Virus record (IMG/VR): IMGVR_UViG_3300009130_000084
Location: 1-34,190 of that record
Origin: a virus
Length of the DNA: 34,190 bases
Direction: 5' to 3' (one strand)
The position numbers were made by a program, and so were the translations under genes. The notes below the pieces were generated by a model. That model worked only from the letters and a program-made list of their open reading frames with translations. It was not told the DNA's origin and made no database searches. Positions 7,628 through 34,190 of this stretch are shown in pieces. The stretch's first letter is position 1; each line of letters begins with the position of its first letter.

Positions 7628-9349
7628 TTACACCAAGTCCGCAACAACAACTAGACCGTACATGTCAGGTCTCACCATCTTCTTCGCGTAGCGAGTCATG
7701 ACACCCTTACGGGGCACGAAATCTTCCGGTCCAAAGATTGTGGGCGTGACTTGCAGCGGCACATACGGGGCGTAGACATAGCCGCTTTCGAGGAAGCTTT
7801 GGCCACGACGACCCACGAGAATCAGATTCCGTGGGAAGTAAGGATCTACATGAATGTCCATCTTACGGCTGATCGAGCCAACCTTGTGGACACCCCAACT
7901 ACCCTTGTCATCATCGACGGCTGCCGAAGCACGGAAGCCGCTGGTGAACTCAAGGATATTTGCCACTTCGGGAGAGCAAACAAGGAAGTTTGCGCCACCA
8001 CGCAGGGTCTTACGGTGAATACGAGCACTCACGTCGTTCACACGTTCCAGGCACGTTTCGTACCATTCGGACACGTTACCCGTGAAATCCGGATATTGTG
8101 TCGTGTTCAACAGAGCACCTGTTTCAGCGTTGAGGAACTTGCCTGGGCTACGGCTCCAGTACAATGTACCGGCGGTCGCACCATTGATCAGGTCTGCCAG
8201 AATCTCTTGATCGATTTCAAGAGCAATCTGCTCAGACAAGATGCTTGTCAATTCAACTTCGGCGTCGAGGTTGTGATAAGCATTCAAATCCTGAGCAAGT
8301 TCAGGGCTCCACTTAGCCTTCAGCTTTTTGGTGTTCGCAGTCACCGCCACCGAATCGATCTTAATATCGATCTGGGGAAGGTTCACGTTATTTTCCAACT
8401 GCCACGGCACGGAGCCTATGACAGAACCAATGGCTCCACCCTGTGCCCACGTGTCATCCAGCGGGAAGCGAAGACCGACCAGAGTAGCAGCAGATGTTGC
8501 CAGTGCATTACAGTCTTCACCCGTACTCGTCAAGACCATGCGAAGCACGGTTGTCGAGCTACCAGAGTACTCCGTCAAACGGCGGACTTGGAAGCCACCG
8601 CTATTAAGAGTTCCGTCCGGACCTTCAGTACCCGAAACACAAATGGCAACAAAATCCTTGAGATTCAGCCCAGCCGGTACGGCCGAGGAGAGAATCACAT
8701 AGGGGCTGCCAGTTCCGAGAGCGCCCGAAACAAAAACGGGATCGTCACGAAGGACGTCGAAGAGCGCGCCGCCGGGGCTCGAAGCTGCATCGCCGAACGT
8801 ACCAGAGGCATCAACGGTGACAGCCTGAACGCTCGAACCAGTCGGTCCAGCAAAGCCATTATTGAGGCTGTAAAAGCTGGACTCGCCGAGGCGATTGCTC
8901 AAATCCACACCACCGGTGATCTGTTGACCGACAACACCACCACCATACAGCGAACCGCTAGAACGGTTAGCCAAACGAGCAGTAATACCATTGACGGTCG
9001 TCATTGCGTCCGACCCATCGTATTGGAAGTCGAGGAAGAAGATGAGTCCACTGGGGAGGCTCATCGGTTGGACCGACACAAGGTCCTGGGCCAAAAGGTT
9101 GCCGAAAACACGGCGCACAATTGGGAAAGCAACCGAGGCAAAGCCTTCGACGTCACCAGCAGCCATTGTACTGGTTTCTTTAAGCAGTTGAGCAGCTTGG
9201 TTTTCCAGAAGACGCGACATGTTACTACGAGTAACGTCGTCGAGACCTTCCAAAAGACCGGTCTGTTCCCACTTGCCGAGAAGAGCTTCACCCTCGTTGG
9301 CAAGAGAGCGTGCTCTGATGCCTTCTGTTAGGGTTTCAATTACAGACAT
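7628..9349 (-). CDS. gp23: Major capsid protein, gp23-like
   Basis: A 573-aa HK97-fold capsid protein of the T4 gp23 family (T4: 521 aa). The N-terminal propeptide has LLGKWEQTGLLEGLDD, then MSRLLENQAAQLLKE. The mature domain opens with FPIVRRVFGNLLAQDLVSVQ and PMSLPSGLIFFLDF. Later landmarks are KAKWSPELAQDLNAYHNLDA, LTSILSEQIALEIDQEILAD and, near the end, YVYAPYVPLQ with GVMTRYAKKMVRPDMYG. By analogy to T4 (cleavage after LTE at residue 65), the propeptide should end at L-L-K-E58, directly before TST. This gives the local cleavage rule used to read the effector peptides. AAGGAG precedes the ATG; scaffold gene upstream, terminator downstream. Confidence 0.95.
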   Translation of the reverse strand: MSVIETLTEGIRARSLANEGEALLGKWEQTGLLEGLDDVTRSNMSRLLENQAAQLLKETSTMAAGDVEGFASVAFPIVRRVFGNLLAQDLVSVQPMSLPSGLIFFLDFQYDGSDAMTTVNGITARLANRSSGSLYGGGVVGQQITGGVDLSNRLGESSFYSLNNGFAGPTGSSVQAVTVDASGTFGDAASSPGGALFDVLRDDPVFVSGALGTGSPYVILSSAVPAGLNLKDFVAICVSGTEGPDGTLNSGGFQVRRLTEYSGSSTTVLRMVLTSTGEDCNALATSAATLVGLRFPLDDTWAQGGAIGSVIGSVPWQLENNVNLPQIDIKIDSVAVTANTKKLKAKWSPELAQDLNAYHNLDAEVELTSILSEQIALEIDQEILADLINGATAGTLYWSRSPGKFLNAETGALLNTTQYPDFTGNVSEWYETCLERVNDVSARIHRKTLRGGANFLVCSPEVANILEFTSGFRASAAVDDDKGSWGVHKVGSISRKMDIHVDPYFPRNLILVGRRGQSFLESGYVYAPYVPLQVTPTIFGPEDFVPRKGVMTRYAKKMVRPDMYGLVVVADLV

Positions 9350-9373: not shown

Positions 9374-10417
9374 TTATTTGTTCATTCCAGCGAGTGTAGC
9401 CCATCGATTATAGGTAGGATCGCTGTCTGTAGAGGCAGTACTCTTATGATGAGAGCCACCGAGAACCACCGAGGAAGTACGAGTCACAACTTCAGACAAT
9501 GATTGTGCACGAGCGGTATCCGAACCGCCGGCCAGTGTCTTTTGAAGAGTTTCATACATCATCTTCGCTTCATCTACGGACTTTGCTTTCCCGACCATAT
9601 CAACAACTTTATTTTTTTGCTGCTCATTCAAAGAGGGATCGGTTAGGACACGGTTCGCATATAGCAACCTGGCATTCTGAAGATTTGTTTCTTGCAGCTT
9701 GCCTTTCATTTTTTGTAAAATCTTAGTAATAACTTTATTTTCATTTTGAAGTCTATCGTTTTCAGCGGACACTTTTCGAAGGTGTTCGATGTCTTCTTGC
9801 TCCATACCATCGGTAGGAACAAAGAGACTTCCTTCGTCTTCCTCCTTTTGATCTTGCGTCAATGCTTCTTCCGCACGATCAAGCTCCACTTGAGGAATAT
9901 CAACCACCATCATCTCCTTAAAGATGTTGACCAATTCTGCTTCATTAATTTCAATTTCGTCGTCCGGACGATTCCCCGGCACATACATTGCCGCCTCGTC
10001 ATCAAGTTCAATTTCTACGTCTGAATCGGGTTCGTCCAAACTAATATCTATATTATCCGCCACATCTTCCACATCCTGGGAAAATTCATCGGTGGGCGAT
10101 TCAGCAGCCGCGGCGAGTATATTATCCAAGTCTACCTCCACAACCCCTTCATCTTCGAGATGGGCCATGGGGACTTGCTCCATGGTAGTGGTAGAGACCT
10201 CACCTTCGGCTTGGTCTAACTCCGGCGCATCGACCAAAGCTTCATCATCCAGGGGGTCTTCTTCAAGTCCGAGGGGGTCCTGTTCTGAGAGTAAGCGATT
10301 AACGGCGCTCTTTACTTCTGTAGAATATTTTTCGACTACGGCAGCTTCTGCGTTCTTGAGCGCAGCCTCCCGCAGAGCTTTGGCGTCAACAATGGCCTCT
10401 TCAAGCATACTGGACAT
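9374..10417 (-). CDS. gp22: Prohead core scaffold protein, gp22-like
   Basis: A 347-aa, very acidic, mostly helical protein directly upstream of the capsid gene, the position of T4 gp22 (269 aa). It starts with a helix around LREAALKNAEAAVVEKYSTE (about 15-34) and VKSAVNRLLSEQDPLGLEE, typical of gp22-like scaffolds. A long Asp/Glu-rich linker spans about 45-190, followed by a coiled coil (LRKVSAENDRLQNENKVITK, about 232-251) and a Ser/Thr-rich tail. Gp22 assembles the inner core around which gp23 polymerises and is degraded by the prohead protease during maturation. Assignment rests on position, acidity and coiled-coil content. GAGGA lies about 8 nt before the ATG. Confidence 0.8.
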   Translation of the reverse strand: MSSMLEEAIVDAKALREAALKNAEAAVVEKYSTEVKSAVNRLLSEQDPLGLEEDPLDDEALVDAPELDQAEGEVSTTTMEQVPMAHLEDEGVVEVDLDNILAAAAESPTDEFSQDVEDVADNIDISLDEPDSDVEIELDDEAAMYVPGNRPDDEIEINEAELVNIFKEMMVVDIPQVELDRAEEALTQDQKEEDEGSLFVPTDGMEQEDIEHLRKVSAENDRLQNENKVITKILQKMKGKLQETNLQNARLLYANRVLTDPSLNEQQKNKVVDMVGKAKSVDEAKMMYETLQKTLAGGSDTARAQSLSEVVTRTSSVVLGGSHHKSTASTDSDPTYNRWATLAGMNK

Positions 10418-10927: not shown

Positions 10928-11224
10928 TTATCTCCTTTTGCCGCGGATGCCGCTAAAGTTAAATAGTTCGTCTCTTTTTTTATTGACTTTCCGCACTAAT
11001 CTTTTTTTAGCTGCCTTGCGCTCCGAATTCTTTTCCGAGCCTTTTTTAAAGGTGCGGCGGTCACGTGCTTCATCTAAGATGCCGCTTCGTTTTACTTTTT
11101 TGCAGAATTTTCTTACCATCTTTTCCGCATCGCCGCGGCACTCTTCATGAGAAACAGTGATACACGTACGTAAAGGGGCGGAGTGTTGGTGGCGGAATGA
11201 TTTTGAATAGTTGTTACGTTTCAT
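10928..11224 (-). CDS. rpsU: Ribosomal protein bS21 homologue (phage-encoded)
   Basis: A 98-aa, strongly basic protein. After an N-terminal extension of about 22 residues, it aligns by eye with bacterial bS21. GDAEKMVRKFCKKVKRSGIL (about 31-50) matches 'fdvAlRrFkRscEKaGvL', the next segment DEARDRRTFKKGSEKNSERK matches 'aEvRrReyYEKPtterkRK', and a Lys/Arg-rich tail follows. bS21 joins the 30S subunit near the Shine-Dalgarno/anti-SD helix and affects initiation. Phage bS21 homologues are known from aquatic phages and thought to bias host ribosomes toward phage messages. It is inside the head-gene cluster, consistent with late expression. The N-terminal extension is unusual for bacterial bS21. 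No strong SD is visible before the ATG (AGAGAAAG only). Confidence 0.8.
   Translation of the reverse strand: MKRNNYSKSFRHQHSAPLRTCITVSHEECRGDAEKMVRKFCKKVKRSGILDEARDRRTFKKGSEKNSERKAAKKRLVRKVNKKRDELFNFSGIRGKRR
10958..10967 (-). promoter_or_regulatory. ACTATTTATA-type element inside the 3' end of the bS21 gene (ACTATTTAAC)
   Basis: The coding strand reads ACTATTTAAC, 32 nt upstream of the ATG of the small structural gene, overlapping codons at the end of the bS21-like gene. It is a weaker match to the element and partly constrained by coding, so it could be coincidental. Confidence 0.3.
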
Positions 11225-11255: not shown

Positions 11256-11648
11256 TTAATGCTGGTTTTTCGCATGGGCAAGAGTTCCCCAATTTTGCAT
11301 TCCCGGTATATTGGTAATATCGACGCCAGGATCACGTGGGTCCACTCCCGACAGGGCTCCGTGACCCTTGTCAGTCGGTACGGGTCGGGTTCCTTCAAAC
11401 AAAGCCGGGTTCTCAAATTTCTTCTTGGCGGCTTCATAATTATGAGGTTTTGTTTGCATCGCTTGACGCATTTGCTTCTTCACTTCGGAAGGGGGTGATG
11501 GATGGCGAGGGGAAGTGGTTTCGCGCAGGACCGACGCTCCCGATAACCCTTGGGCCACCTCCGTAATAATGCCCGACAAGACGCCCTCTTCAAAGATGAC
11601 CTCCTTCACGCATTCTTTAATAATATTTTTTAGTTCCGATTTTTTCAC
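11256..11648 (-). CDS. MKIS-type N-terminal peptide protein in head cluster, function unknown
   Basis: A 130-aa protein starting at a GTG (11648). Its N-terminus, MKKSELKNIIKECVKEVIFE, is a diverged member of the recurrent MKIS/MKIT peptide family seen at seven other genes here. F-E-E followed by G (about residues 19-22) is an acceptable prohead-protease-like site. The middle and C-terminus are Pro/Gly-rich and polar, probably disordered, with KKKFENPALFEGTRPVP as a possible short motif. It lies between the fibre-like gene and bS21. An internal or capsid-associated virion protein is inferred from N-terminus and position. No catalytic motif was recognised. Confidence 0.65.
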   Translation of the reverse strand: MKKSELKNIIKECVKEVIFEEGVLSGIITEVAQGLSGASVLRETTSPRHPSPPSEVKKQMRQAMQTKPHNYEAAKKKFENPALFEGTRPVPTDKGHGALSGVDPRDPGVDITNIPGMQNWGTLAHAKNQH

Positions 11649-11663: not shown

Positions 11664-12680
11664 TTAAACTTGGTACCAAGCAGAGATTGAGGCGGTTGAA
11701 TAGTATACAAAATTGAGTGAGGTCTTTGCGCCAGGCATAAAGAAGTCAGATACGCCAAAAAGATTTCCGGCTATCTGAATAGGAATACTATTAGCGGCAC
11801 CCATATTTCCCTCTACAACCAGAGTCAGTCGTTGTCCGCTTGTGGTTCCGTTCGGGAGGGTTAAAGTGTGAATATCCATTCCCATCATTGCGTCAAAGAC
11901 ACCCGTTATGGAGGCAGCATCCAAAAACATCAAGCTTGAACCAATAGATAAAGTACTGCTGGTTCCGCTCCCCAAATCCTGTGTGGATGGGGTCGTTATA
12001 TAATAGTTGGATTGAGTGGTGCCCTGGACATCTAAGTCAACAGTGGGAGTGTCTGTATTGATCCCTACTCGGTAGTTGTTCGCATCACTCCTTAATATTG
12101 CTGGTTTACTCCCGTCATCACCATTAACAACAAAGTCAACATTATTGGTTCCATTGTTGACTGTGACTTGGTGAGGAGCCGATGCCTTTTGATGCATACC
12201 AAACAGATTGATTCCTCCAGCATTAAATCTTATTCTATCCTCAGTGAAGTTAATGTAAGTGTCGGCATCACCGTTGTGATAAATCTTTTGGTCAACTCCA
12301 ATATTTCCGGCTACATCAAGTTTATAGTCGGGGGAGTCAGTTCCGATGCCCACCTTGCCGTCAGCATCTATCACCATCGCCGGTTGGGCTTCTGCTCCTG
12401 CCTTGAAATCCAGACTGTCGTCACCGTAGTTGTTAAAGATAATCCACTTTCGTGTGCCGTTCTCGTAAAATTCAAGACCGGGATGGCTGTCCGTGTCGCC
12501 GTTTATTTTAATCCTAGCGTCGTCGCCGCTGATTTTAAACGATGTGCCCTCTTGTTCGACGGTTCCGGTAATTTGAAGTACATCGTCGGACGTATTGCCG
12601 AGAATTACTTTTCCGTCGGCAGTTGCTTTGAATCCCCAGGAGCCGTCGGCATCTATGGATCCGTAACCTACTCCAGTCAT
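11664..12680 (-). CDS. Fibre-like structural protein, possible head fibre
   Basis: A 338-aa protein with repeat composition typical of phage fibres: Gly/Asp/Asn-rich, beta-prone segments such as GKVGIGTDSPDYKLDVAGNI (about 109-128) and RVGINTDTPTVDLDVQGTTQ (about 207-226). These are the 'VGIGT.sP...LdV.G' repeats that precede S74 chaperone domains in tail spikes. No S74 domain follows; the protein ends in a hydrophobic beta-rich segment. It starts at a TAATG overlap with the prohead protease stop, with GGAGA 7 nt upstream, so it is translationally coupled to a head gene rather than placed with tail-fibre genes. A head-attached fibre or decoration is inferred from this location; a tail fibre in an atypical place is the alternative. 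Confidence 0.7.
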   Translation of the reverse strand: MTGVGYGSIDADGSWGFKATADGKVILGNTSDDVLQITGTVEQEGTSFKISGDDARIKINGDTDSHPGLEFYENGTRKWIIFNNYGDDSLDFKAGAEAQPAMVIDADGKVGIGTDSPDYKLDVAGNIGVDQKIYHNGDADTYINFTEDRIRFNAGGINLFGMHQKASAPHQVTVNNGTNNVDFVVNGDDGSKPAILRSDANNYRVGINTDTPTVDLDVQGTTQSNYYITTPSTQDLGSGTSSTLSIGSSLMFLDAASITGVFDAMMGMDIHTLTLPNGTTSGQRLTLVVEGNMGAANSIPIQIAGNLFGVSDFFMPGAKTSLNFVYYSTASISAWYQV

Positions 12681-13276
12681 TAGTCGTCTCCGAGTACGTC
12701 GTTAAGGGCTCGATTAATGCGGTCGGCTTTAGTGAGGTGGGTCTTAATTTTATTTTCCGCTACGAGAAAAGCGCCGGCAGTGCTGGGTTCTGAGACAAGA
12801 TCAAAACAAAGAAGCTGAAAGTCATCCTCGACCATCGTTACTCCATTTTCTTGTCGAGTAGAACCCAAGCCACGACTTGAGATACCCAAACAAACACCAC
12901 CCTCGACCAGTTGTTTCGCGATTTGTCCGGCGGGTGTATTGAGGATCTTCATTTTTCCCATCACATCGTTACCATTCCACCATATTTCGGTCATTACATG
13001 CGACGCATTCGAAAGATTAACAACGGCTCGATCAGGATGATCTAATTCCCCGACTGCCCTACCTTCCTTCACAAGTTTGGTATAGTTTTTTATTTCGCGC
13101 TCAAGAATTATCCGAGGATAGACTCGGTTGTTACCGTTTTTAGATTCTGCACATTGAATCTTGCCCGCCACAACGAGATGAAGTCCGGCTTTGTTACCTT
13201 CCTTTTCCTCCTCGGTGAGCAGGGTGTCACTGTAGTCTAATTCCATAAACTCTTGAAGAACATATTTTTCACTCAT
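12680..13276 (-). CDS. gp21: Prohead maturation protease, gp21-like serine protease
   Basis: A 198-aa protein of the T4 gp21 / herpesvirus-assemblin-like protease type (T4: 212 aa). Visible landmarks are NGNNRVYPRIILEREI (about 48-63), the histidine motif GELDHPD (H80) and the serine motif GISSRG (S133/S134), followed by LVSEPST (about 160-166). In T4 the enzyme cleaves after (L/I)-x-E in capsid, scaffold and internal proteins and then itself. This makes it the likely processing enzyme for the N-terminal peptides described elsewhere. AAGGAG lies about 9 nt before the ATG. The gene overlaps the preceding small ORF by 8 nt and the fibre-like gene by 1 nt. Confidence 0.92.
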   Translation of the reverse strand: MSEKYVLQEFMELDYSDTLLTEEEKEGNKAGLHLVVAGKIQCAESKNGNNRVYPRIILEREIKNYTKLVKEGRAVGELDHPDRAVVNLSNASHVMTEIWWNGNDVMGKMKILNTPAGQIAKQLVEGGVCLGISSRGLGSTRQENGVTMVEDDFQLLCFDLVSEPSTAGAFLVAENKIKTHLTKADRINRALNDVLGDD

Positions 13277-13535
13277 GGTTTGAACTCCTTATATCATTAA
13301 GTAGGATCTCTATATCATTCTCGTATTGTTGACCCTCTTCGGTACGTGGATCCCACGAATCTAAGATGTCTCGAATCTGCTGCTCAATTTTGGGAATATC
13401 CATATAAATCTCTGGCGACTCTGGCACCTCAACTCGTCGGGTGGGCCACGAGAAAGGAAGTCCACCGATAGCAGGGGTTTCGCTAACGATAACTTCCCGT
13501 ATGATATTCCTTATGTACTCTTTGTTTATTTTCAT
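13269..13535 (-). CDS. Small MKIS-type N-terminal peptide protein upstream of protease
   Basis: An 88-aa protein whose first 20 residues, MKINKEYIRNIIREVIVSET, belong to the recurrent MKIS/MKLT family. I-V-S-E followed by T (about 16-20) resembles a prohead-protease site. The remainder contains a Pro-rich stretch (GGLPFSWPTRRVEVPESPEI) and an acidic helix (IEQQIRDILDSWDPRTEEGQ). It overlaps the protease gene by 8 nt. T4 encodes small prohead-core proteins (gp67, gp68) between portal and protease; this could be a positional counterpart, but no similarity is claimed. No strong SD is visible. Confidence 0.6.
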   Translation of the reverse strand: MKINKEYIRNIIREVIVSETPAIGGLPFSWPTRRVEVPESPEIYMDIPKIEQQIRDILDSWDPRTEEGQQYENDIEILLNDIRSSNHE

Positions 13536-13939: not shown

Positions 13940-14486
13940 CATAACCAGCGAAGGTATAGGTGGGATCGCCAATAGCATTGGCACCAGGCGTATCCTGATA
14001 GGGTGGGATCTTACCATAAGGAGTTGTTTCATCGTCGGGAGGATTAGCAAAGTTATCCTCAATATTATCTTCGTACTCTTCTGCGCGCATCTCTTCGTGA
14101 GCCGTCGTTTTTATAAATTCCGCAATCTGATATAAAACTGCTTGAACTGGATCGACATTTGCGGTGGGAGGATAAGATGCTTCCACCATTCCGAAGGTAG
14201 AGCCACCCTGGACGGGTCCATCGAGCACCCCACCTTTAAATAACGCATACATTAAGGCGTGCTGATAATCATATACATCCCTCTCTGCATAGGGCTTAGG
14301 AAGCGTTACTATCTTGCTCTCTTTGGGCATCACCACAATATCAATGTATTGATGATCATTAATCAAGAGATTGCCGTCCAATGTCTGGCTTATCTCCAGA
14401 GCAACTGTTGCTTGAGGGGGACTCGGAGGGCGCTGGCTGTCGGACCCGTGTATTCTAAACGTTACTGGCATCTGTTTCGTACTCAC
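13926..14486 (-). CDS. Conserved-looking protein of unknown function between portal and protease
   Basis: A 186-aa protein. The first in-frame start is a GTG at 14486 (MSTKQMPVTFRIHG); the ATG at 14471 (MPVTFRIHG) is equally possible, and neither has a strong SD. The body has a beta-rich N-terminal half (DGNLLINDHQYIDIVVMPKE), a helical centre (YDYQHALMYALFKGGVLDGP, then a VQAVLYQIAEFIKT-like helix) and an acidic, Tyr/Pro-rich disordered tail ending GYGYLY. It overlaps the preceding gene by 17-32 nt, so the two are probably coupled. Location suggests a role in head assembly or core; no family recognised with confidence. Confidence 0.6.
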   Translation of the reverse strand: MSTKQMPVTFRIHGSDSQRPPSPPQATVALEISQTLDGNLLINDHQYIDIVVMPKESKIVTLPKPYAERDVYDYQHALMYALFKGGVLDGPVQGGSTFGMVEASYPPTANVDPVQAVLYQIAEFIKTTAHEEMRAEEYEDNIEDNFANPPDDETTPYGKIPPYQDTPGANAIGDPTYTFAGYGYLY

Positions 14487-15291
14487 TTACCAATGTTTGG
14501 AGTTTAAGAATTTCTAAAATTTGCGCCTCACTTATAAACGACACATTAAATTTGTCTAATCTCTCCAAAACTTTCTTGGTGTTCCCCACCATCTGTGGGT
14601 CTTGGTTCACCTCTGGGAGCAAAAGGGATTTTTCTACCGCCTCCCGGATGCGCTGGAGTTCTCTGCCTACAGCTATTCGAAAATCCACATCTCCATCCCC
14701 AAAAGAAGTAACAAAGGAAGATAAAAGGTTTTGTTGTTCTGGTAAAAGATGTTGATACTTGTCATTATATGAGTGAGTAAACTTGGAAACCACCAGCGTG
14801 TCTATAGGTTGCAAATCTGTCACCGCCGGAGTATCAGGCTCGGACATCAAACCCTCCATAATCTGGCGTTCCATTAAAATGCGATTTTTAAGAGGGGCTT
14901 TTTCCCCGAAAATTTGGGACAACGTTGCATATGACTTATAGTTAGGCACAAAATTGTCATAGACCCCTTTCCCCAATTCGGTATTTATCTTCTTGATGAC
15001 GCGCGATTGTTCCTTAAAGATCTTATCTTGATCTAACGCTTGGTGAGAGTGGCGTGCACGGTGAATAGTTTTCTCGGCGGTATATTGATCCACCCCCTTA
15101 AGGTCCGTAATGGAATTAAAGCAATCCAGTTCACTAAACAAGACCATCCCTCGACCAAAATGTTCACGCAGAATACCTTTAATAACCGTACCTCGTTTGG
15201 AGTCCCCTGAGACCACAGTCTTTGTGAGTTCTCGGATGAGGGCTTCAAAAAGAAAAGCCGTATTTCTCTTTTTGTTATGTTTGATCTTCAT
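14455..15291 (-). CDS. Helical protein downstream of portal, probable head-core or assembly protein
   Basis: A 278-aa, mainly helical protein. Its N-terminus MKIKHNKKRNTAFLFEALIR recalls a conserved, uncharacterised family next to the portal gene in marine T4-like phages (from memory). The rest is a series of amphipathic helices with basic and acidic patches (RHSHQALDQDKIFKEQSRVI; LERLDKFNVSFISEAQILEI). No enzyme motif is visible. It starts 17 nt inside the portal gene's 3' end, behind GAGGA, so it is coupled to the portal. A prohead-core function analogous to T4 gp67/gp68 is inferred from position only. The start differs from the MKIS peptides (Lys/Asn-rich, no KEEL helix), so I do not group it with them. 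Confidence 0.65.
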   Translation of the reverse strand: MKIKHNKKRNTAFLFEALIRELTKTVVSGDSKRGTVIKGILREHFGRGMVLFSELDCFNSITDLKGVDQYTAEKTIHRARHSHQALDQDKIFKEQSRVIKKINTELGKGVYDNFVPNYKSYATLSQIFGEKAPLKNRILMERQIMEGLMSEPDTPAVTDLQPIDTLVVSKFTHSYNDKYQHLLPEQQNLLSSFVTSFGDGDVDFRIAVGRELQRIREAVEKSLLLPEVNQDPQMVGNTKKVLERLDKFNVSFISEAQILEILKLQTLVSEYETDASNV

Positions 15292-20145: not shown

Positions 20146-21279
20146 TTATTTAAGGAACTTCTTTAGTCCCTCAATACGCTTAGAGGGTCGCTTCAGTCCG
20201 CTGACCAACGTATAGGTGACGAGCTTATCCCTCTTATCATCTTCATAAATGCCGCGATGAATGATGGCACCGCCCGTCAAAGCGGCCAGCGTATCAAATC
20301 CAAATTCAATACTATCCATCAACCCTACAGTCTCTTCAAAGATTTCTTCGCCCCCGACTACAATACAGGCTGCGCCCGTCGCAGTGGTCAAATCAAAGCC
20401 CTCTGCCAGCAGAGTTTTCTCCAGATTTTTCTTAAGAGCATTAGAGATAGCTGTTTCACTCTCTACATCTTTGACGCTGGTAACACCCATAATCATGCAC
20501 CCAGACTGTCGCATAATGCTGTCGTAATCGGTAGCATCAAAGGTTGTGTATTCTGAATCCTGATTTGCCAGGACGTTAAAGACGTGGAACAAGCCCGCGA
20601 CTGTATTGTTGATGGTGGTCCAAAACTTCTTCACTGTCAGTTTAGGGTAAAGTTTTTTAATCTTCTCGTTGTCCACCATAATGAGGGGGGCAATCTTCCC
20701 TTTCTCTGCGAGCCCGCAAAGTTGGTTAATGCGATTGTGAGCATTCTTGGCTACCGTGGGGGAAGCCGACTCGCCAGCCGTTGGAAGGGAAGCTATGACG
20801 CCAACCCGCTGGTCCACATCTTCTACACCAATGTAAGTGAAGTACTTTTTGGCGACTTTTATCAGGGTATTAACTGTCCCTCCACCAGAACCACCCGAAA
20901 CCCCAAGGCAAATCATGATGCGATCAACGTTGGTCCCGAAAATTTCACGGAACTTGTTGAACACTTCTTGTTCTTTGCGTTCGATGGCTGCTTCGGCTTT
21001 GGCTTGGTCTTTGCCGGCACCCTGTTCACCATGTTCGTCCACTAAGAACTTTTGCTCGTCGGGAATATCCAATCCATTAAGATCTGAGCGAGCGGTATTC
21101 ACCGCCACCGTCTTGGTATAACCCATGTCGTAAAACGCCTTTGCCATACGACCGCCGCCTTGGCCAGCGCCAACTATAGCATAAGTGAGCGCGCCGCCAG
21201 ACTTATCCTCGACGGTTTCCTGCTCTTCATTTAAGTCGGGATCATAGTCCTCGATTTCAAGTGTAGGAATGTCTACCAT
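20146..21279 (-). CDS. FtsZ/tubulin-superfamily GTPase
   Basis: A 377-aa protein with the tubulin/FtsZ nucleotide-binding plan. After a 30-residue acidic N-terminus come AIVGAGQGGGRMAKAF (about 34-49), VAVNTARSDLNGL (about 58-70, like FtsZ 'VNTD.q.L'), the GTP signature LGVSGGSGGGTV (about 125-136), and a likely T7 loop FDATDYDSIM (about 247-256) with acidic residues D248, D251 and D253. Phage tubulins (PhuZ, TubZ) polymerise to move or position DNA or capsids; bacterial FtsZ drives division. Which applies is unknown. It is among late genes upstream of the terminase block, behind TAAGGAG. No long C-terminal FtsA/ZipA-binding tail is evident. Confidence 0.8.
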   Translation of the reverse strand: MVDIPTLEIEDYDPDLNEEQETVEDKSGGALTYAIVGAGQGGGRMAKAFYDMGYTKTVAVNTARSDLNGLDIPDEQKFLVDEHGEQGAGKDQAKAEAAIERKEQEVFNKFREIFGTNVDRIMICLGVSGGSGGGTVNTLIKVAKKYFTYIGVEDVDQRVGVIASLPTAGESASPTVAKNAHNRINQLCGLAEKGKIAPLIMVDNEKIKKLYPKLTVKKFWTTINNTVAGLFHVFNVLANQDSEYTTFDATDYDSIMRQSGCMIMGVTSVKDVESETAISNALKKNLEKTLLAEGFDLTTATGAACIVVGGEEIFEETVGLMDSIEFGFDTLAALTGGAIIHRGIYEDDKRDKLVTYTLVSGLKRPSKRIEGLKKFLK

Positions 21280-21839: not shown

Positions 21840-22289
21840 CTACCCCACGTCAACAGGGTCTTCAACCACCTCATCAGGGGGAACGACAGCCTCGGCTTCA
21901 GCCTGCGCGTCTTGAGCCTCTTGTGCCGCCGCGGCAGCAGCCGCAACAATGGTGCGTTTCAAAATACCGGCAAATTTCTTAGCTTGAGCGTCAGACAAAC
22001 CCATCTCCAGGGCAGCCTTTTCGGCACCTAAGCCTAAATTGGCGACGGTAGCCTGCTCGTCTTTAAATGCAATCAAATATTTAAGAAAAAGTCGTGAACC
22101 ATCCATGAACTCTTTGGGTCCCTGAAGTCTATTGACGGCAAGCCAGGCCGTTTTTCCATCCGCAGTTCCCGGCTCGAAAGGAACCACCCCTCTTTGACCG
22201 TCTTCCTTCAACAAACGGTGGATTACTTTCGGATTCTTCATTAACTCTTCTTTGAGGAGTTTGGTTAAATGACTTCGAGAAATCTTCAT
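21840..22289 (-). CDS. MKIS-type N-terminal peptide protein with Ala-rich helix
   Basis: A 149-aa protein starting MKISRSHLTKLLKEELMKNP, a member of the recurrent MKIS peptide family. R-L-L-K-E followed by D-G (about 25-31) resembles the L-K-E boundary of the MCP propeptide and the effector peptides. The body has a small folded region (DGKTAWLAVNRLQGPKEFMD; LFLKYLIAFKDEQATVANLG) and an Ala/Glu-rich helix (KRTIVAAAAAAAQEAQDAQA), ending in an acidic Pro/Val tail. No catalytic motif. GGGAGGG precedes the ATG, with an ACTATTTATA element 22 nt upstream. An internal virion protein is the working interpretation. Confidence 0.65.
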   Translation of the reverse strand: MKISRSHLTKLLKEELMKNPKVIHRLLKEDGQRGVVPFEPGTADGKTAWLAVNRLQGPKEFMDGSRLFLKYLIAFKDEQATVANLGLGAEKAALEMGLSDAQAKKFAGILKRTIVAAAAAAAQEAQDAQAEAEAVVPPDEVVEDPVDVG

Positions 22290-22912: not shown

Positions 22913-23251
22913 TTATTTGTCTCCGAAATTTATCCTAATGTAGTCGATTACGTTTAGGGCCTGCTCTACACTAAGAAGGTTCTTCCACGGTGGCATCCGC
23001 CCTTTACCTTCAAAAATACTTTGGAGCAATGTACCATCGGGTTGAGCGAGGATAGACTTATCATTCACAAAGTCCGCCCCTAACCCGCCAAGTCCAGTCC
23101 CGTCATAACCATGGCACGACGTACAGTACATTATATAGGTTCGTTCGCCGGGATGCCGTGCGGCATCGTGTTTGGTTACTTCTGTTATTCCCGCATCAGA
23201 CGGGGTGGACTGGGAGCATCCGATTAGGGCGACAAGTATTATCTTTTTCAT
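22913..23251 (-). CDS. c-type cytochrome, predicted lipoprotein
   Basis: A 112-aa protein, taking the ATG at 23251 that has AGGA about 7 nt upstream (the frame also extends to 23284). The N-terminus MKKIILVALIGCSQSTPSDA has a lipobox (LIGC, Cys12), so it should be lipidated and placed in the periplasm. The mature domain has the haem c attachment motif CTSCH (C43, C46, H47), and GRMPPW (M86) supplies the usual axial Met; it ends in the helix LNVIDYIRINF seen in small class I cytochromes. Maturation would need the host cytochrome c assembly system. It could shuttle electrons during infection; the target is unknown. A bacterial origin is likely. Confidence 0.85.
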   Translation of the reverse strand: MKKIILVALIGCSQSTPSDAGITEVTKHDAARHPGERTYIMYCTSCHGYDGTGLGGLGADFVNDKSILAQPDGTLLQSIFEGKGRMPPWKNLLSVEQALNVIDYIRINFGDK

Positions 23252-23267
23252 TTTACTTCCTAGGGGG

Positions 23268-23492
23268 TTATATCTCACATTCACACTCTTTTATTTTGTT
23301 CCGACGATTTCTGACTCTACACAAAGGGCACCGAATATAATGTGAATCACTTTCATAAAACATAGCCCAAAGTCTGGGAACCCTCAACGCTATTCTCCAC
23401 GGTCCAATAAACCACAGGATACAACACCGAGGTATATTAGAATGTCGTCCGCACTCCCAGTGGTATTTTATTTTATTGAGATACGAAAGCAT
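23268..23492 (-). CDS. Small Cys-rich putative zinc protein
   Basis: A 74-aa protein (ATG at 23492; in-frame ATGs at 23498 and 23516 are alternatives). It contains YHWECGRHSNIPRCCILWFI (about 11-30), then YIRCPLCR (about 55-62) and a final CEC. The 'CGR.S.IP.CCI.WF' pattern is, from memory, typical of a small uncharacterised phage/bacterial family with an apparent membrane-seeking Trp-rich segment and a CxxC zinc site. It overlaps the end of the SbcCD-like gene by 20 nt and precedes the cytochrome gene. The Cys and His could bind zinc. Function unknown. Confidence 0.55.
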   Translation of the reverse strand: MLSYLNKIKYHWECGRHSNIPRCCILWFIGPWRIALRVPRLWAMFYESDSHYIRCPLCRVRNRRNKIKECECEI

Positions 23493-26679: not shown

Positions 26680-27000
26680 TTAGTCCTTGTAATCGTCTAG
26701 GAAGCCAGGGGCAGCTAGCATTGCATACTCATATCCACCACGGATAAAATCCGGATGCTCTTTGGCTTTTTCTTTGGCCTCTTCTCTACTTGATGCCATC
26801 ACATGAACTCTAGTGCTCTCGATTGTATTTCGCCCGACATCTTTACCAATCTTAACTTCATACTCTTCTTTGGGTTTCTTTGACCCATAACTTGAGCCCC
26901 GTACATTAGAAGAAGGATGTCCTCCCGAAGTGTAGCCGGCGAATATCTCGTTAAGCTCTTCTTTGATTATCTTTCGTAGTTGAGACTTGGTGATTTTCAT
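26680..27000 (-). CDS. MKIS-type N-terminal peptide protein, function unknown
   Basis: A 106-aa protein starting MKITKSQLRKIIKEELNEIF, the clearest form of the recurrent MKIS peptide; E-E-L-N-E lies at about 14-18. A Gly/Ser-rich linker (GYTSGGHPSSNVRGSSYGSK) follows, then a small mixed alpha/beta domain (EYEVKIGKDVGRNTIESTRV; SSREEAKEKAKEHP) and a final segment RGGYEYAMLAAPGFLDDYKD. It overlaps the preceding gene by 4 nt (ATGA), with AGGAGAGGG upstream. Peptide, linker, domain is what an exported or packaged cargo protein would look like. Confidence 0.65.
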   Translation of the reverse strand: MKITKSQLRKIIKEELNEIFAGYTSGGHPSSNVRGSSYGSKKPKEEYEVKIGKDVGRNTIESTRVHVMASSREEAKEKAKEHPDFIRGGYEYAMLAAPGFLDDYKD

Positions 27001-27932
27001 GAGCTTAAACCCTCTCCTATATGTGTAAGTGCCGGACTTGCAATTAACCGCTGAAGGATTTCTTCTACAATATTATCAGAGCGGTTGCCCGGTCTGTTTT
27101 GTTTTCTGCTTGCGCTCGCCATCTGACGCTTGGCTTTGCGTTTCTTTTCTGCGCCGGCGGCAGGGCGTCTGGCTGGACGTTTCGATGCGCGTTCTTTAGC
27201 TTGAGCAGCTAAGCGCGCCTGTCTGTTGGGTCCAGGTTTTACCGAAGCCAATACTTTATCCCCTTCGTTTTTGAGTATTTCAACTTGTTGGGTGCGGTAA
27301 GCACGGGCTTCGGGAGATTTGGAAGTAGACTTTTGGAAGAAGTCGTATATAGCCATTAGATCTGCCGATTTTCCACTCCCAGCAAATTGAGTATCACCCC
27401 CTTCCGCACTTCCAGCGTGGGCTTTAATTTTGGCATGAGCCCATTTTTCGAGGGCTTTTTTGAGATTGCCTGCGCGGCCCCGAGGGTCTTGAGTTATTTT
27501 TCCGGCACGGTCAACATAATACCTGAGTTGTTCAGGATTGCCCAGTACTTCTAAGTTGCTATCCAACGCACTCACTATTCCTAAATAAACCAAAGCAGCT
27601 TCGCGATTATTATTGGGGAGATCCGCAACGTAATTGGCGGCAATCTTTTTGGCTAAGCGTTGTGCCTCGGCGTCATCTTTTGGAGGAAAACCAGCAGTCG
27701 GTGCCTGGTTAAGCGCATCATAATCAATTATAAAAGATGCCAACTCTTCGCGGGCTTCCGCTGCTTCGCCAGATTTGGCACCTTTATTTTGTTGAGCCAG
27801 TTGACGAAGACGGGCAGCTTCCTCTTTCCCAAAACACTGTTCGGGTGTATAACAGGGGACGTTTCGCTCGTTTAAAGTTTGCGTGATCGAGACCTGAATT
27901 AGTTCACGAAGGTGAGATTTCGTGAGTTTCAT
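26997..27932 (-). CDS. MKIS-type protein with basic, DNA-binding-like C-terminal region
   Basis: A 311-aa protein starting MKLTKSHLRELIQVSITQTL, a diverged MKIS peptide; L-N-E at about 20-22 could be a processing site. The middle (about 45-200) is helical and polar. Residues about 235-290 are extremely basic and Ala-rich (for example KRPARRPAAGAEKKRKAKRQ), resembling a histone H1-like tail. A basic internal protein that helps compact or neutralise packaged DNA is inferred. The protein ends in a predicted helix (IVEEILQRLIASPALTHIGE). C27 and C33 lie within a few residues of each other. It abuts the next gene upstream (2 nt). Confidence 0.6.
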   Translation of the reverse strand: MKLTKSHLRELIQVSITQTLNERNVPCYTPEQCFGKEEAARLRQLAQQNKGAKSGEAAEAREELASFIIDYDALNQAPTAGFPPKDDAEAQRLAKKIAANYVADLPNNNREAALVYLGIVSALDSNLEVLGNPEQLRYYVDRAGKITQDPRGRAGNLKKALEKWAHAKIKAHAGSAEGGDTQFAGSGKSADLMAIYDFFQKSTSKSPEARAYRTQQVEILKNEGDKVLASVKPGPNRQARLAAQAKERASKRPARRPAAGAEKKRKAKRQMASASRKQNRPGNRSDNIVEEILQRLIASPALTHIGEGLSS

Positions 27933-27934
27933 GG

Positions 27935-28267
27935 CTAGTCTTTGCCTGGTTTTGCCGATGCCTCTGTGGTTTCGATGCTGGGATATTTCGATTTCACGTG
28001 CCTTTGAACCGTCTTAACTAAACTGGAGAGGCTTCCCTCATACCACTTCGGAACGGATGAATACTGACTGGCACGTGCGAGAGCGTTGCGTGCTTGAGAC
28101 TCGCTATTGATTGGGAAATGATCCTTATCATCTTTTACTTTGGAGCTTTCAGCGGAAAATACTACATCACCGCGGTTGCGTACCTTAGCGTCCGGATCCT
28201 TCTTTTCCGAAAGGCGAGAAACCTCTTCTTGAACGAGTTGGCGTAGATAGGAGCGGTTGAGTTTCAT
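27935..28267 (-). CDS. MKIS-type N-terminal peptide protein with DUF6582-like domain
   Basis: A 110-aa protein starting MKLNRSYLRQLVQEEVSRLS; R-L-S-E precedes KKD (about 18-24). The domain contains SSKVKDDKDHFPINSESQAR (about 41-60), NALARASQYSSVPKWYEGSL and a last helix (LVKTVQRHVKSKYP). From memory, this 'kvKdgkDHFPi.te.qArnALaRv.qy...P.Wy.GsL..l...V...V..kyP' layout matches a small uncharacterised family (DUF6582-like) often inside larger phage proteins. Here it stands alone behind the peptide. Basic at the C-terminus; no catalytic role known. Confidence 0.65.
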   Translation of the reverse strand: MKLNRSYLRQLVQEEVSRLSEKKDPDAKVRNRGDVVFSAESSKVKDDKDHFPINSESQARNALARASQYSSVPKWYEGSLSSLVKTVQRHVKSKYPSIETTEASAKPGKD

Positions 28268-28276
28268 AGTATTGCC

Positions 28277-28489
28277 CTAGTCTTCGTCACGATCTTCGTG
28301 CCGGTCTTCGGCGCGGTCATGCTGATGCTTTAAGTAATCGATATGGCGATTCATCTCTCGGCGAATATCTTCAAGATGATCAACATCCATGTCATCATGC
28401 CTTTCCTCGTCATGAAAAGTGTCCTCTTTCATGACTTTGGTCAGTTCCTCGCGAATAACTTGTAATAGTTTAGATTTAGAGATTTTCAT
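28277..28489 (-). CDS. Small MKIS-type protein with charged His/Asp-rich body
   Basis: A 70-aa protein, taking the ATG at 28489. A longer frame to 28738 exists but runs through the upstream gene and would bury the MKIS peptide. The start MKISKSKLLQVIREELTKVM is almost identical to the next gene's peptide, at DNA level too; V-M-K-E is followed by D. The body is extremely polar (FHDEERHDDMDVDHLEDIRR; HIDYLKHQHDRAEDRHEDRD), one charged helix with about ten His, which could bind metal. It may act as a packaged peptide or spacer. GGTGG lies shortly upstream. Confidence 0.6.
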   Translation of the reverse strand: MKISKSKLLQVIREELTKVMKEDTFHDEERHDDMDVDHLEDIRREMNRHIDYLKHQHDRAEDRHEDRDED

Positions 28490-28493
28490 ATTA

Positions 28494-28913
28494 TTACCAC
28501 CCGTAGCCGCCTTGTCCACGAGCTTTCCTTGCGTACCACTCCCTATCGCCGGCTTTCTGTTGAGAGATTCTTTTACTCCCAATAGCTGTGCCGCCGCCGG
28601 GGATGCGGCTGTCCCTCGAACTCGTTGGGTTGCTCCATCGTGCAGGTCCGGATGATCCGTATCCTCTAGGATTGACGCCACTTGTAGAGTCGCCCAGTCG
28701 AGCAGCCTCTTCATCCGTATCCGGACGTTCGCCTTCAAGTTCGTCGTGACCGGCTTCCTTCAGAAGCTTATTAAGAGCACGGCGGTTTTGGCGAGCATAG
28801 CGCCAGAGCGAATCGATGTTCTTGTCTTCGCGTTCATCGGCTGACTCCTCCGCAAGAACAGCGGTAAGTTCTTCTTTGATGACCTGAATCAGTTTAGATT
28901 TAGAGATTTTCAT
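28494..28913 (-). CDS. MKIS-type N-terminal peptide protein, disordered Gly/Arg-rich body
   Basis: A 139-aa protein starting MKISKSKLIQVIKEELTAVL; V-L-A-E precedes ESADE (about 19-27), a possible processing boundary. A helical region (SLWRYARQNRRALNKLLKEA) is followed by a Gly/Ser/Arg/Pro-rich, disordered part (GVNPRGYGSSGPARWSNPTS) and a C-terminal KARGQGGYGW. The Arg/Gly/Tyr composition resembles nucleic-acid-binding low-complexity tails. It has a strong GGAGGG site and an ACTATTTATA element 23 nt upstream, so it may head a transcript covering the MKIS genes. Confidence 0.6.
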   Translation of the reverse strand: MKISKSKLIQVIKEELTAVLAEESADEREDKNIDSLWRYARQNRRALNKLLKEAGHDELEGERPDTDEEAARLGDSTSGVNPRGYGSSGPARWSNPTSSRDSRIPGGGTAIGSKRISQQKAGDREWYARKARGQGGYGW

Positions 28914-28947: not shown

Positions 28948-29751
28948 TTAAATCCCCGCAAGTCTCAAAACATCTGATGTTATTGCTAAAACGAAGATTC
29001 CGAGCACCATAACGGCACCAATAATATTTAGTACGTTGCGAGTCTTTACAGCCAATTTTTTCCGTCTTATTCCTTCGACTACAGAAATGCCGATATGTCC
29101 ACCATCTAATACTGGGATTGGTAGTAAGTTAATTACACCGAGATTGATGGAGAAAAAGGCAATCCAATCTATTAAGAATCCCCAGTCTCCTGTGTCTGCG
29201 CTGCGTTTTCTTGCTTGTTCCGTAAATTCATAAACGGCTACAGGTCCGCCCACTTCTTTAATAGACATAGGCTCTTTGCGAGGCATTGTTGCGGCTTCCC
29301 AAATGCTGCTATACATCTTCACCGATATTTTATGAGAGTAGCCAGCCGCTTCCATTACGCCGATGCGGTGGGGGATAGCTCCCTCTGGCACATAAACATC
29401 AGGGTATGGCTGCCCGACCAAGAGCATAAAATATAATGGCCACGGCAACAACAAATTAAACACCGGACCCATCACCGCTATGAAGGCTCGCTTCCATGCC
29501 GACACCGACCAAAAAGATTCGGGGTCATTTTTCTTGTTGTGATAATCATCTTCGCCACGAGGTTTGATGTAGCCGCCAAGAGGTATGAGCGACAAACGCC
29601 ACTCAGTTCCCCATAGTTTCTTCTTAAGGAGGACTTTCCCGAACCCTATTGAAAAACTATCAACGGCGACGCCCATTGCTCGGGCTGCGACATAATGTCC
29701 CAGTTCATGAACAAAAATTACTAAAACAATTATTCCAAGAAAGGTAAGCAT
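28948..29751 (-). CDS. M50 / site-2-type intramembrane metalloprotease
   Basis: A 267-aa membrane protease; the ATG at 29751 has GGAGG about 8 nt upstream (a TTG at 29769 is possible). The zinc motif HELGH (H15, E16, H19) lies in the first TM helix and the third ligand motif NLLPIPVLDGG (N208-G218, D216) in a later one; AVMGPVFNLLLPWPLYFMLL is another TM. E. coli RseP (about 450 aa) has two PDZ domains; here only about 40 residues (YPDVYVPEGAIPHRIGVM) lie in that place. Cellular S2P enzymes cut membrane-bound anti-sigma factors or signal-peptide remnants. A role in altering the host envelope stress response or maturing phage membrane proteins is inference. Confidence 0.88.
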   Translation of the reverse strand: MLTFLGIIVLVIFVHELGHYVAARAMGVAVDSFSIGFGKVLLKKKLWGTEWRLSLIPLGGYIKPRGEDDYHNKKNDPESFWSVSAWKRAFIAVMGPVFNLLLPWPLYFMLLVGQPYPDVYVPEGAIPHRIGVMEAAGYSHKISVKMYSSIWEAATMPRKEPMSIKEVGGPVAVYEFTEQARKRSADTGDWGFLIDWIAFFSINLGVINLLPIPVLDGGHIGISVVEGIRRKKLAVKTRNVLNIIGAVMVLGIFVLAITSDVLRLAGI

Positions 29752-30236
29752 AGGTTGCCCTCCTGACAAACGTTTGTGGATTGTGGCATGTGGTGTGGGA
29801 GTTGGTAATCCCTGAATAATATATTAGGACCCTTGGACCAGGCATCGTCTTCTTCGAATATTTTACACCTTTCGGCGGCTCTTCTTTGGGCGTCCATCGG
29901 AGTCCAGAGTTGCAGGTAGTTGTGTATCTTTTTATTTTCTTCCCGCAGTTTTTGCATCTCCGTGCTCTGGGCTTTAATGGTAGTCTCTAGGCTGTAGATT
30001 GCTTGACTGGCAGCCTTTTCCAGCCGTTCCTCTATATGGCTCTCATTCACGACATACAAAAGGAGACCCATAAAAATAGTACAAACAACAGCCGCCACGA
30101 CCGAAGTCCAAACGACTGCTGAAAGATAGTTAGTCTTAATCTTGGTAGCAGGCGGAGTGCTATAGTCCTGCGTGTATTGGACAGAGTTCCGTGCGTTTTC
30201 TCTGATTCTGTGGAATGCGTCCCTTTCTCGGCTCAT
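29730..30236 (-). CDS. Single-TM coiled-coil membrane protein
   Basis: A 168-aa protein with a cytosolic basic N-terminus of about 40 residues, one TM helix (VVWTSVVAAVVCTIFMGLLL, about 41-60), a coiled coil (EERLEKAASQAIYSLETTIK; AQSTEMQKLREENKKIHNYL) and a C-terminal region with three Cys (about 123, 157, 162) that would be periplasmic and could form a disulfide. The topology is spanin-like, but the globular Cys-containing end is unusual for spanins. The gene overlaps the protease start by 22 nt, so the two are probably coupled and could be substrate or partner. There is no visible SD; an ACTATTTACT box sits 2 nt before the ATG. Confidence 0.6.
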   Translation of the reverse strand: MSRERDAFHRIRENARNSVQYTQDYSTPPATKIKTNYLSAVVWTSVVAAVVCTIFMGLLLYVVNESHIEERLEKAASQAIYSLETTIKAQSTEMQKLREENKKIHNYLQLWTPMDAQRRAAERCKIFEEDDAWSKGPNILFRDYQLPHHMPQSTNVCQEGNLCLPFLE

Positions 30237-30270: not shown

Positions 30271-30591
30271 TCATCGCCTTATAAACCTCAAATCACCATC
30301 AGTATTGGCTATCTGGCTTGGTTTGGCTTCAAAGTCTTCACCAACATAGCGATATTCCCCTGGGTTGTCTGCCTCTTGTATATCGTCTTCATCTACAAAC
30401 GCATAAACTACATAGAAGTCCTCGTCATTATAGATTGCCGAAGTAACAGCGTGTTCGCCAGCAAACCTGCGGGACAAAGTTACATAATCATTATTCCTAA
30501 TAACTTTTGTGAAAGCAGGTTGTGCTCGGAAGATTTTTACCTTCTTCCCTTCTTTCAAAAACTTCCGCCACTCTGTTAGTAGTTTTTTCAT
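30271..30591 (-). CDS. Signal-cassette protein with small ART-like domain
   Basis: A 106-aa protein: residues 1-14 are the cassette peptide MKKLLTEWRKFLKE, followed by GKK. The rest (about 18-100) reads VKIFRAQPAFTKVIRNNDYV, TLSRRFAGEHAVTSAIYNDE and later NPGEYRYVG. An Arg in an early strand (R22), a 'DYVTLSrrFAgeHA' segment and a late Glu (E79) resemble small ADP-ribosyltransferase-like folds (the 'R-S-E' plan), though I cannot confirm an active site. T4 packages ADP-ribosyltransferase Alt in its head, which makes the idea attractive. If processed after L-K-E14, a domain of about 92 residues would be delivered. Confidence 0.6.
   Translation of the reverse strand: MKKLLTEWRKFLKEGKKVKIFRAQPAFTKVIRNNDYVTLSRRFAGEHAVTSAIYNDEDFYVVYAFVDEDDIQEADNPGEYRYVGEDFEAKPSQIANTDGDLRFIRR
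30551..30591 (-). repeat. Signal-cassette DNA repeat, copy 1
   Basis: A 41-nt segment ending at the ATG and encoding MKKLLTEWRKFLKE minus its last base. Used as the reference copy, it matches copies 2-5 at 38, 40, 38 and 33 of 41 positions, counted by eye. It lies at the start of a gene whose downstream part is unrelated to the other carriers. Confidence 0.85.
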
Positions 30592-31016
30592 TGTTCCATC
30601 ACCATGGTGATCACCATTATTGGGTTTCCGCCACTATCTTTGCCGACAACCTCAAAGCCATATCCTTCATACCAATCTACTAGACTGAAACCTTCTGCTT
30701 GGCTTTGTCCCAAGTCGGCTATGAGTATTGTAGTGTAAGCACCCGCATCAGCGGCTTGGCTCATAAAGTCTTCAACCAATTGGTTCCCAACACCTTGTCC
30801 TCTGTTTTCTTCGGGGACAAAAGCATTTTTCATTATAGCAACAGGTAGTTCAAGGTTTTGTATCACCTCTTCACTAACACCTTCTTTGTTCGCCCAGTTC
30901 ATTAGCCGGTCGATATTGCTATGAATAACACCACCGATAGTAGCACCTTCTATATCAATTGATATTTCTTGGGCTTCTTTCAAAAACTTCCGCCACTCTG
31001 TTAGTAGTTGCTTCAC
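30588..31016 (-). CDS. Signal-cassette protein with GNAT acetyltransferase domain
   Basis: A 142-aa protein starting with GTG (31016): cassette peptide MKQLLTEWRKFLKE, then AQE. The rest is a compact GNAT domain: LPVAIMKNAFVPEENRGQGV (about 57-76) with the acetyl-CoA loop R-G-Q-G-V-G (72-77), helix NQLVEDFMSQAADAG, and WYEGYGFEVVG (115-125), the usual 'fYek.GFe..g' end. GNAT enzymes acetylate amines on proteins or small molecules; some toxins acetylate aminoacyl-tRNA. The target here is unknown. It overlaps the ART-like gene by 4 nt. L-K-E followed by A fits the T4 prohead protease consensus exactly. Confidence 0.8.
   Translation of the reverse strand: MKQLLTEWRKFLKEAQEISIDIEGATIGGVIHSNIDRLMNWANKEGVSEEVIQNLELPVAIMKNAFVPEENRGQGVGNQLVEDFMSQAADAGAYTTILIADLGQSQAEGFSLVDWYEGYGFEVVGKDSGGNPIMVITMVMEQ
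30976..31016 (-). repeat. Signal-cassette DNA repeat, copy 2
   Basis: Identical to copy 1 at 38 of 41 positions, including third codon positions across the centre. The differences are at the 5' end, where ATG is replaced by GTG. Confidence 0.85.
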
Positions 31017-34151: not shown

Positions 34152-34190
34152 TAAAAATTTCGGACTTACTTTTCCTCGCTTAGTCCCAGT

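Follow-up and report, generated by a model that had tools for sequence, protein, structure and literature searches.

The Alt protein of bacteriophage T4 is an injected ADP-ribosyltransferase (ART). To our knowledge, T4 has only a handful of known injected internal proteins, and these were found by biochemistry. The T4 protease gp21 cleaves the capsid protein gp23, the scaffold, the internal proteins and Alt after L/I-x-E (PMC9026906, PMC5694885). The T4 leader is both a targeting signal and a substrate, and the freed proteins are ejected (PMC9026906, PMC5694885, PMC3012670). An Asp at P1 permits targeting but blocks processing, so that the two functions are separable (PMC9026906). That one protease matures both the capsid and the injected effectors is already known from T4.

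How does an uncultured marine phage compare? We analysed a 34,190-bp virus fragment, here called the window, in which all the main genes lie on the minus strand. The gene order is portal (15275), protease (12680), scaffold by position (9374) and major capsid protein (MCP; 7628). The features of the head module are as follows.

7628–9349, minus strand: gp23-like MCP, 573 aa (PF07068, E=4e-72, 244 bits, above cut-off)
9176–9349, minus strand: predicted MCP propeptide, residues 1–58, ending QLLKE before TST, with hydrophobic-x-Glu at the propeptide boundary in 59 relatives
9374–10417, minus strand: gp22-like scaffold by position and acidity, with sites LRE17 before A, LNE265 before Q and LSE309 before V/A
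11256–11648, minus strand: conserved head-module protein between protease and scaffold, with an N-terminus like leader family 2 (below); a predicted propeptide (11520–11648) ends VLRE43 before T
12680–13276, minus strand: gp21-like prohead protease, 198 aa (PF03420 Peptidase_S77, E=1.4e-31; PHROG 207, E=9e-53; PDB 5jbl, 4.8e-20)

The sequence-only reading had called 12680–13276 a gp21-like protease, and the Pfam, PHROG 207 and 5jbl matches agree. The Peptidase_S77 profile scores 110 bits against a curated cut-off of 27, and 5jbl, matched at E=4.8e-20, is the solved structure of T4 gp21. The candidate catalytic triad is H80, S133 or S134, and D159; the motifs GELDHP (H80) and GISSRG (S133/S134) are the same in relatives and in T4. 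Judged by these matches, the protein is a true Peptidase_S77 of the gp21 family. Its predicted specificity, from the conservation of the substrate sites described below, is L/I-x-E.

Several neighbouring genes are recorded here as side observations. A ribosomal protein S21-like gene (10928–11224, minus strand; E=4e-5, under the cut-off) lies between protease and MCP, and Microcystis phage Mel-JY01 has an annotated RpsU at the same place. This T4-like phage head/tail region also holds a tubulin/FtsZ-like gene (20146–21279, minus strand; PF00091, E=2e-9; TubZ-like C-terminal domain, E=3e-8). A phage-borne gene for a small c-type cytochrome lies at 22913–23284 (minus strand; Cytochrome_CBB3, E=1e-11; CxxCH).

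Is the MCP cut where T4 gp23 would be? Translation confirms the L-L-K-E before TST at residue 58 that had been read in the MCP: residues 55–61 are L-L-K-E58-T-S-T, with the E58 codon at 9176–9178. A single LKE is in itself little evidence. The remaining proteins of the window, 9,111 residues in total, contain [LI]xE 112 times, and besides E58 the MCP propeptide has hydrophobic-x-Glu at E5, E9, E34 and E49, five sites in all. We therefore used conservation as the test. The Glu aligned to E58 is invariant and hydrophobic-x-Glu is kept in 59/59 aligned relatives, whose sites read LLKE, LLRE, LVVE or LVTE; the next residue is in most cases T, S, Q or A. Conservation is tight up to this Glu; directly after it the alignment is variable, with length differences. 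Distant T4-like MCPs have LLRE before A/S, Flavobacterium phage immuto has VSE before A, Mel-JY01 ISE before A and T4 gp23 itself FLTE before A. The mature T4 gp23* chain is alignable with the window MCP from residue 64 on, which would fit a cut at residue 58 without fixing its position.

The other head-module proteins carry comparable sites. In relatives of the scaffold-position protein, hydrophobic-x-Glu is kept at E17 (69/76), E265 (85/85) and E309 (83/83). Since Pfam and PHROG profile searches gave no significant family match for 9374–10417, its name rests on gene order. In the core protein at 11256–11648, for which no homologues were found in isolated phages, a hydrophobic-x-Glu with S, A, T or Q as the next residue stands at the junction of the conserved and variable parts in 62/67 relatives. 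A portal-adjacent protein (14455–15291, minus strand) starts with MKIKHNKKRNTAFLFE before A, with hydrophobic-x-Glu16 in 97/97 sequences, and is possibly another processed core protein.

At the other end of the window, five overlapping or abutting minus-strand genes (30271–32208) share a MKKLLTEWRKFLKE-like leader. Translation likewise upholds the earlier observation that their leaders end in L-K-E, with G, A, G, A and D as the next residues.

30271–30591, minus strand: cassette protein 5; leader 30550–30591, MKKLLTEWRKFLKE before G; weak ParB-C/ART-like domain (PHROG2579, E=2.4e-6)
30588–31016, minus strand: cassette protein 4; leader 30975–31016, MKQLLTEWRKFLKE before A; GNAT-like domain
31017–31412, minus strand: cassette protein 3; leader 31365–31412, MKMKKLLTEWRKYLKE before G; possible papain-like fold
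31409–31867, minus strand: cassette protein 2; leader 31826–31867, MKKLLTEWRNFLKE before A; paired H-x-T/S motifs
31867–32208, minus strand: cassette protein 1; leader 32167–32208, MKKLINEWRKFLKE before D; domain without assignment
32205–34190, minus strand: Nudix protein upstream of the cassette, its N-terminus outside the window (NUDIX, E=6.7e-16), with an ART/PARP-like C-terminal hint (PARP, 0.021)

Cassette protein 4 matches Acetyltransf_7 just under the cut-off (E=3.5e-5) and Acetyltransf_10 just over it; the sole domain hint in cassette protein 3 is Tox-PLDMTX (E=0.014, below cut-off). Profile searches with cassette protein 2 gave no family match and no homologues were found in isolated phages. 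Its two H-x-T/S motifs (H56-V-T and H137-I-S/T, both also present in a relative with 58% identity) suggest that it is probably a 2H phosphoesterase. AlphaFold models of 31409 (pLDDT 45) and 30271 (pLDDT 47) were poor and not used for fold search, and a PDB search with 31409 and 30588 found no match. The region homologous to 32205–34190 in contig G001 (near 92950) is part of a 1868-aa ORF. This ORF begins with MKDLLHSWNQYLAD, which matches the leader weakly (p=0.0004) and has Asp at position 14.

Is the end of the effector leader conserved as a protease site would be? We scanned IMG/VR DNA with a pattern that fixed M1, K2, E7, W8, R9, an aromatic residue at 11 and hydrophobic residues at 4, 5 and 12, left 13 and 14 free, and kept ORFs of at least 60 aa; at least 139 ORFs were found. 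Among the matches listed (139 ORFs), E14 is present in 122, and in a further 14 a one-residue insertion keeps hydrophobic-x-E15. Hydrophobic-x-Glu thus ends the leader in 136/139, though the final Glu is absent from the pattern; of the three exceptions two have D14. Among the matches listed, 59 of 61 cargo groups without clear mutual similarity keep the rule (chance about 17%, p about 5e-43). That the leader ends in hydrophobic-x-Glu far beyond chance is beyond doubt. In these same listed matches E14 carries 3.8 bits of information, residue 13 carries 1.7 and residue 15 carries 1.0, with a fall to about 0.4 past residue 16; no position inside the leader is less conserved than residue 13 (P2). 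To judge from this profile, P3 and P1 fixed, P2 free and little kept past P1' is the signature of a short module that ends at a protease-like motif. The exact cut is not fixed by it, because the leader holds a second [LI]xE, LTE7 before W.

Could E14 instead be merely part of a helix that is never cut? A leader that docks uncleaved into the prohead core or some other phage structure would agree with the low-confidence helix prediction for the conserved stretch, with the replacement of E14 by Asp in two of the three exceptions among the matches listed, and with T4, in which Asp at P1 keeps targeting in the absence of processing (PMC9026906). However, the one-residue insertion moves the Glu to another face of the helix, yet hydrophobic-x-Glu is retained; moreover P2 varies freely between a fixed P3 and a fixed P1, and conservation ends directly after the Glu. 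We regard an uncleaved helix as unlikely, although it is the strongest of the alternatives. The D14 proteins, taken together with the block that Asp imposes in T4, suggest that cleavage may not be universal among the tagged proteins.

What do the leaders carry? Among the matches listed, Pfam recognizes in 63 tagged proteins ART-PolyVal, DUF3990, GNAT, SAM-lyase/DUF3293 and papain-like peptidases of the C39 and C70 types, and also Nudix, AAA_33, RNase_T and kinase-like domains. Polyvalent proteins, which are predicted to be injected, typically contain ART, GNAT and Nudix domains (PMC5512222). Where tagged proteins were scanned one at a time, the Pfam domain begins past residue 18, so a cut at residue 14 would leave it whole. 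A relative sharing 50% identity with one DUF3293 cargo lies within an 11-kb gene that in Flavobacterium elemo phages bears the annotation structural protein (MT497075, 1381–6608). Annotated phage genomes searched with leader peptides of 20–21 aa gave no useful match, these queries being too short.

As a positive control we clustered N-termini blind within whole genomes, T4 included. In T4 this returned MKTYQEFIAE before A, carried by the two genes with the annotations ipII and ipIII; it is the experimentally defined capsid-targeting sequence of T4. The hypothetical T4 gp61.1 (NC_000866, 18966–19130, minus strand) also clustered; its MKTFKEFIKE before D resembles that sequence. In the relatives of the window two families emerged, the effector leader and MKITKSQLRKIIKEE, with about 12–20 leader genes per relative of 170–190 kb. 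The leaders found in Flavobacterium phage immuto (MENFDLKKFLVE before N) and Mel-JY01 (MIKLKSLLQE before I) also end in hydrophobic-x-Glu. Clustering alone does not identify leaders, because it also returned ordinary paralogue families such as homing endonucleases and short MKVGDLV proteins. The window ending FLKE before A and the T4 internal-protein ending FIAE before A are alike, but too short for a homology test.

The second leader, MKITKSQLRKIIKEE, is common to many small genes and to the conserved protein between protease and scaffold. All but the sixth of the following window genes were found by blind N-terminal clustering.

13269–13535, minus strand: leader family 2 gene adjoining the protease, MKINKEYIRNIIRE before V
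21840–22289, minus strand: leader family 2 gene, MKISRSHLTKLLKE before E
26680–27000, minus strand: leader family 2 gene, MKITKSQLRKIIKE before E
26997–27932, minus strand: leader family 2 gene, 311 aa, MKLTKSHLRELIQVSITQTLNE before R; E14 lost, LNE22 present
27935–28267, minus strand: leader family 2 gene, MKLNRSYLRQLVQE before E
28277–28489, minus strand: leader family 2 gene, 70 aa, probable start 28489, MKISKSKLLQVIRE before E
28494–28913, minus strand: leader family 2 gene, MKISKSKLIQVIKE before E

E14 is present in 58/67 family-2 members, though E is absent from the pattern. Hydrophobic-x-Glu is enriched at residues 12–15 (54/61, shuffled 29) and also at 17–30 (48/61, shuffled 29), with no enrichment beyond. 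Propeptides with several cutting sites are known in T4 and in giant phages (PMC5694885). In the window clade the N-terminus of 11256–11648 matches the family-2 profile at p <= 1e-4, and through this match leader family 2 is linked to the head, with a chance resemblance between amphipathic helices as a less probable account. Amid the leader-tagged genes lies a site-2 protease gene (28948–29769, minus strand; Peptidase_M50, E=1e-57).

Does the protease carry a leader of its own? T4 gp21 has LIE9 near its own start (PMC9026906), and the window protease has VLQE9 before F near its N-terminus, with LQE9 kept in near relatives. The protease of sister lineages starts with MKLLTEWCAF, MKNLLTEYFEL or MSKKLLREYYEL. 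Among the N-termini scored against the effector-leader profile, those of the protease in three sister genomes rank 4/233, 6/220 and 8/190, and come first or nearly so once obvious cargo is set aside. For the window-clade protease the likeness is not significant (p=0.10), so we claim a leader-like protease N-terminus for the sister lineages only. The simplest reading, as we infer it, is that the effector leader and the protease N-terminus dock to the same surface of the core.

These observations bear on a further alternative, in which the leader sends proteins elsewhere (for example to the tail, to a compartment formed by the phage or to the membrane of the host) and its L-x-E resembles the MCP site by coincidence. 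Amphipathic N-terminal helices are common targeting devices, and the window encodes a TubZ/FtsZ-like tubulin. Against this, the same method recovers the T4 capsid-targeting sequence with the same ending, a head-module protein whose conserved N-terminal part ends in hydrophobic-x-Glu shares leader family 2, and the protease N-terminus resembles the first leader in sister clades. A destination outside the head is in our judgement very improbable.

Do leaders travel with the protease and the capsid gene? Among the matches listed, S77 and Gp23 are both found in 8 of the 9 leader contigs of at least 140 kb, setting apart G001–G003, which were found through these two genes and contain both. The exception, G035, is colinear with G040 (they share cassette positions) and stops at about 28 kb of G040; the protease of G040 lies at 14 kb and its MCP at 17–18 kb, and G035 ends before the head module. 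Contigs G055 and G056 have neither S77 nor Gp23, and their ‘leader’ matched by chance, in an ORF that is very short. Leader contigs below 100 kb mostly have no S77 among the matches listed, as is expected of fragments, though it is not proof. We take this co-occurrence as consistency and not as an enrichment test.

The constraint on the leader acts on the peptide, because codons 7–14 are mostly as diverse synonymously as the background of the same genes while their residues are near invariant (E14 is GAA or GAG; L12 and R9 each use six codons). We therefore rejected a DNA-level explanation for codons 7–14, and a shared nucleic-acid element (translation start, promoter or recombination site) in place of a peptide signal is the least probable reading of all, even though codons 2–6 are more uniformly A-ending than background and a coding-strand TATTTATA precedes some leader genes. 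As an observation in its own right, TATTTATA stands 13–22 nt before the starts of genes 6246, 13572, 21840 and 28494 (4/6 occurrences; 0.2 expected). It also occurs in G001–G004, G037, G040 and G048, and is a possible promoter element of the window clade; T4 late promoters have TATAAATA.

How, then, might the system work? We think it likely that the leaders are capsid-targeting sequences of the T4 type, removed by the gp21-like protease; by analogy with T4, the effectors would be packed, freed and ejected. Late in infection each effector would be docked in the core of the prohead by its 14-residue leader. In that prohead the gp21-like protease would also be active, cutting after L/I-x-E at the sites predicted from sequence: MCP E58, several places in the scaffold, the core protein 11256–11648 and leader residue 14. 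The folded effectors would be freed in the head and, as in T4, ejected with the DNA, so as to act in the following host ahead of phage gene expression. The second leader family would do the same for many small proteins.

The proposal of the sequence-only reading, that one L/I-x-E rule is shared by capsid, effectors and a gp21-family protease, is thus well supported comparatively and has an exact precedent in T4. Its preference for A/G/S at P1' was over-stated: among the matches listed, A, G or S follows the leader in 21/59 cargo groups (background 19%, p=0.002), and Glu is the most frequent P1' residue, with Ser and Asn next. That effector release is tied to head maturation would follow by T4 analogy alone. 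The conserved 14 residues are probably first of all a targeting signal, a point the earlier reading overlooked, as it did the second leader family.

Should these leaders indeed target proteins to the capsid, genes for injected effectors could be picked out by the dozen in uncultured marine phages with a simple motif, which would also predict the start of each mature protein. The enzymes so marked would include ADP-ribosyltransferase, SAM-lyase-like and papain-like proteins, with a possible role in blocking host defence or remodelling the host. The coupling of effector delivery to head maturation would become testable as well. Because two distinct tag families are carried by many different enzymes, the injected toolkit would be readable from DNA. 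More tentatively, and with somewhat less than even confidence, we suggest that two address codes for the head core are in use among marine T4-like phages, the first similar to the N-terminus of the protease and the second also found on a conserved core protein. With them each genome would load about a dozen different effectors or more; acquiring a leader would mean injection, and the arsenal could be read from leader-Glu signatures. No report of the leader strings was found in the open literature, where absence does not mean that they are unreported. As far as we searched, there is no earlier description of the leaders, of their number per genome, of the second family with its head-module link or of the likeness to the N-terminus of the protease.

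The closest known system is that of T4. There too a short N-terminal leader with an MK start and an L/I-x-E end sits on unrelated injected proteins (IPI–III and Alt), an S77 protease cuts gp23, scaffold and leaders, and the cargo includes an ART (Alt). The window clade differs in its 14-residue leader with an E-W-R core, as against the 10-residue MKTYQEFIAE of T4; in its two leader families, with about 12–20 tagged genes per genome by blind clustering against the three that clustered in T4; and in the cassette of overlapping effector genes, which is unlike T4. In phiKZ and SPN3US the head S80 proteases remove propeptides from both capsid and ejected proteins. The principle is shared, but their propeptides are longer with motifs of the A/S-x-E type, whereas the window clade has short leaders and L/I-x-E. 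The polyvalent proteins (Iyer et al. 2017, PMC5512222), predicted to be injected, contain the same types of cargo domain (ART-PolyVal, GNAT, Nudix and ParB-like). They are giant fusions, whereas the tagged genes of the window clade mostly encode one domain each, though the G001 homologue of the upstream Nudix protein is 1868 aa long.
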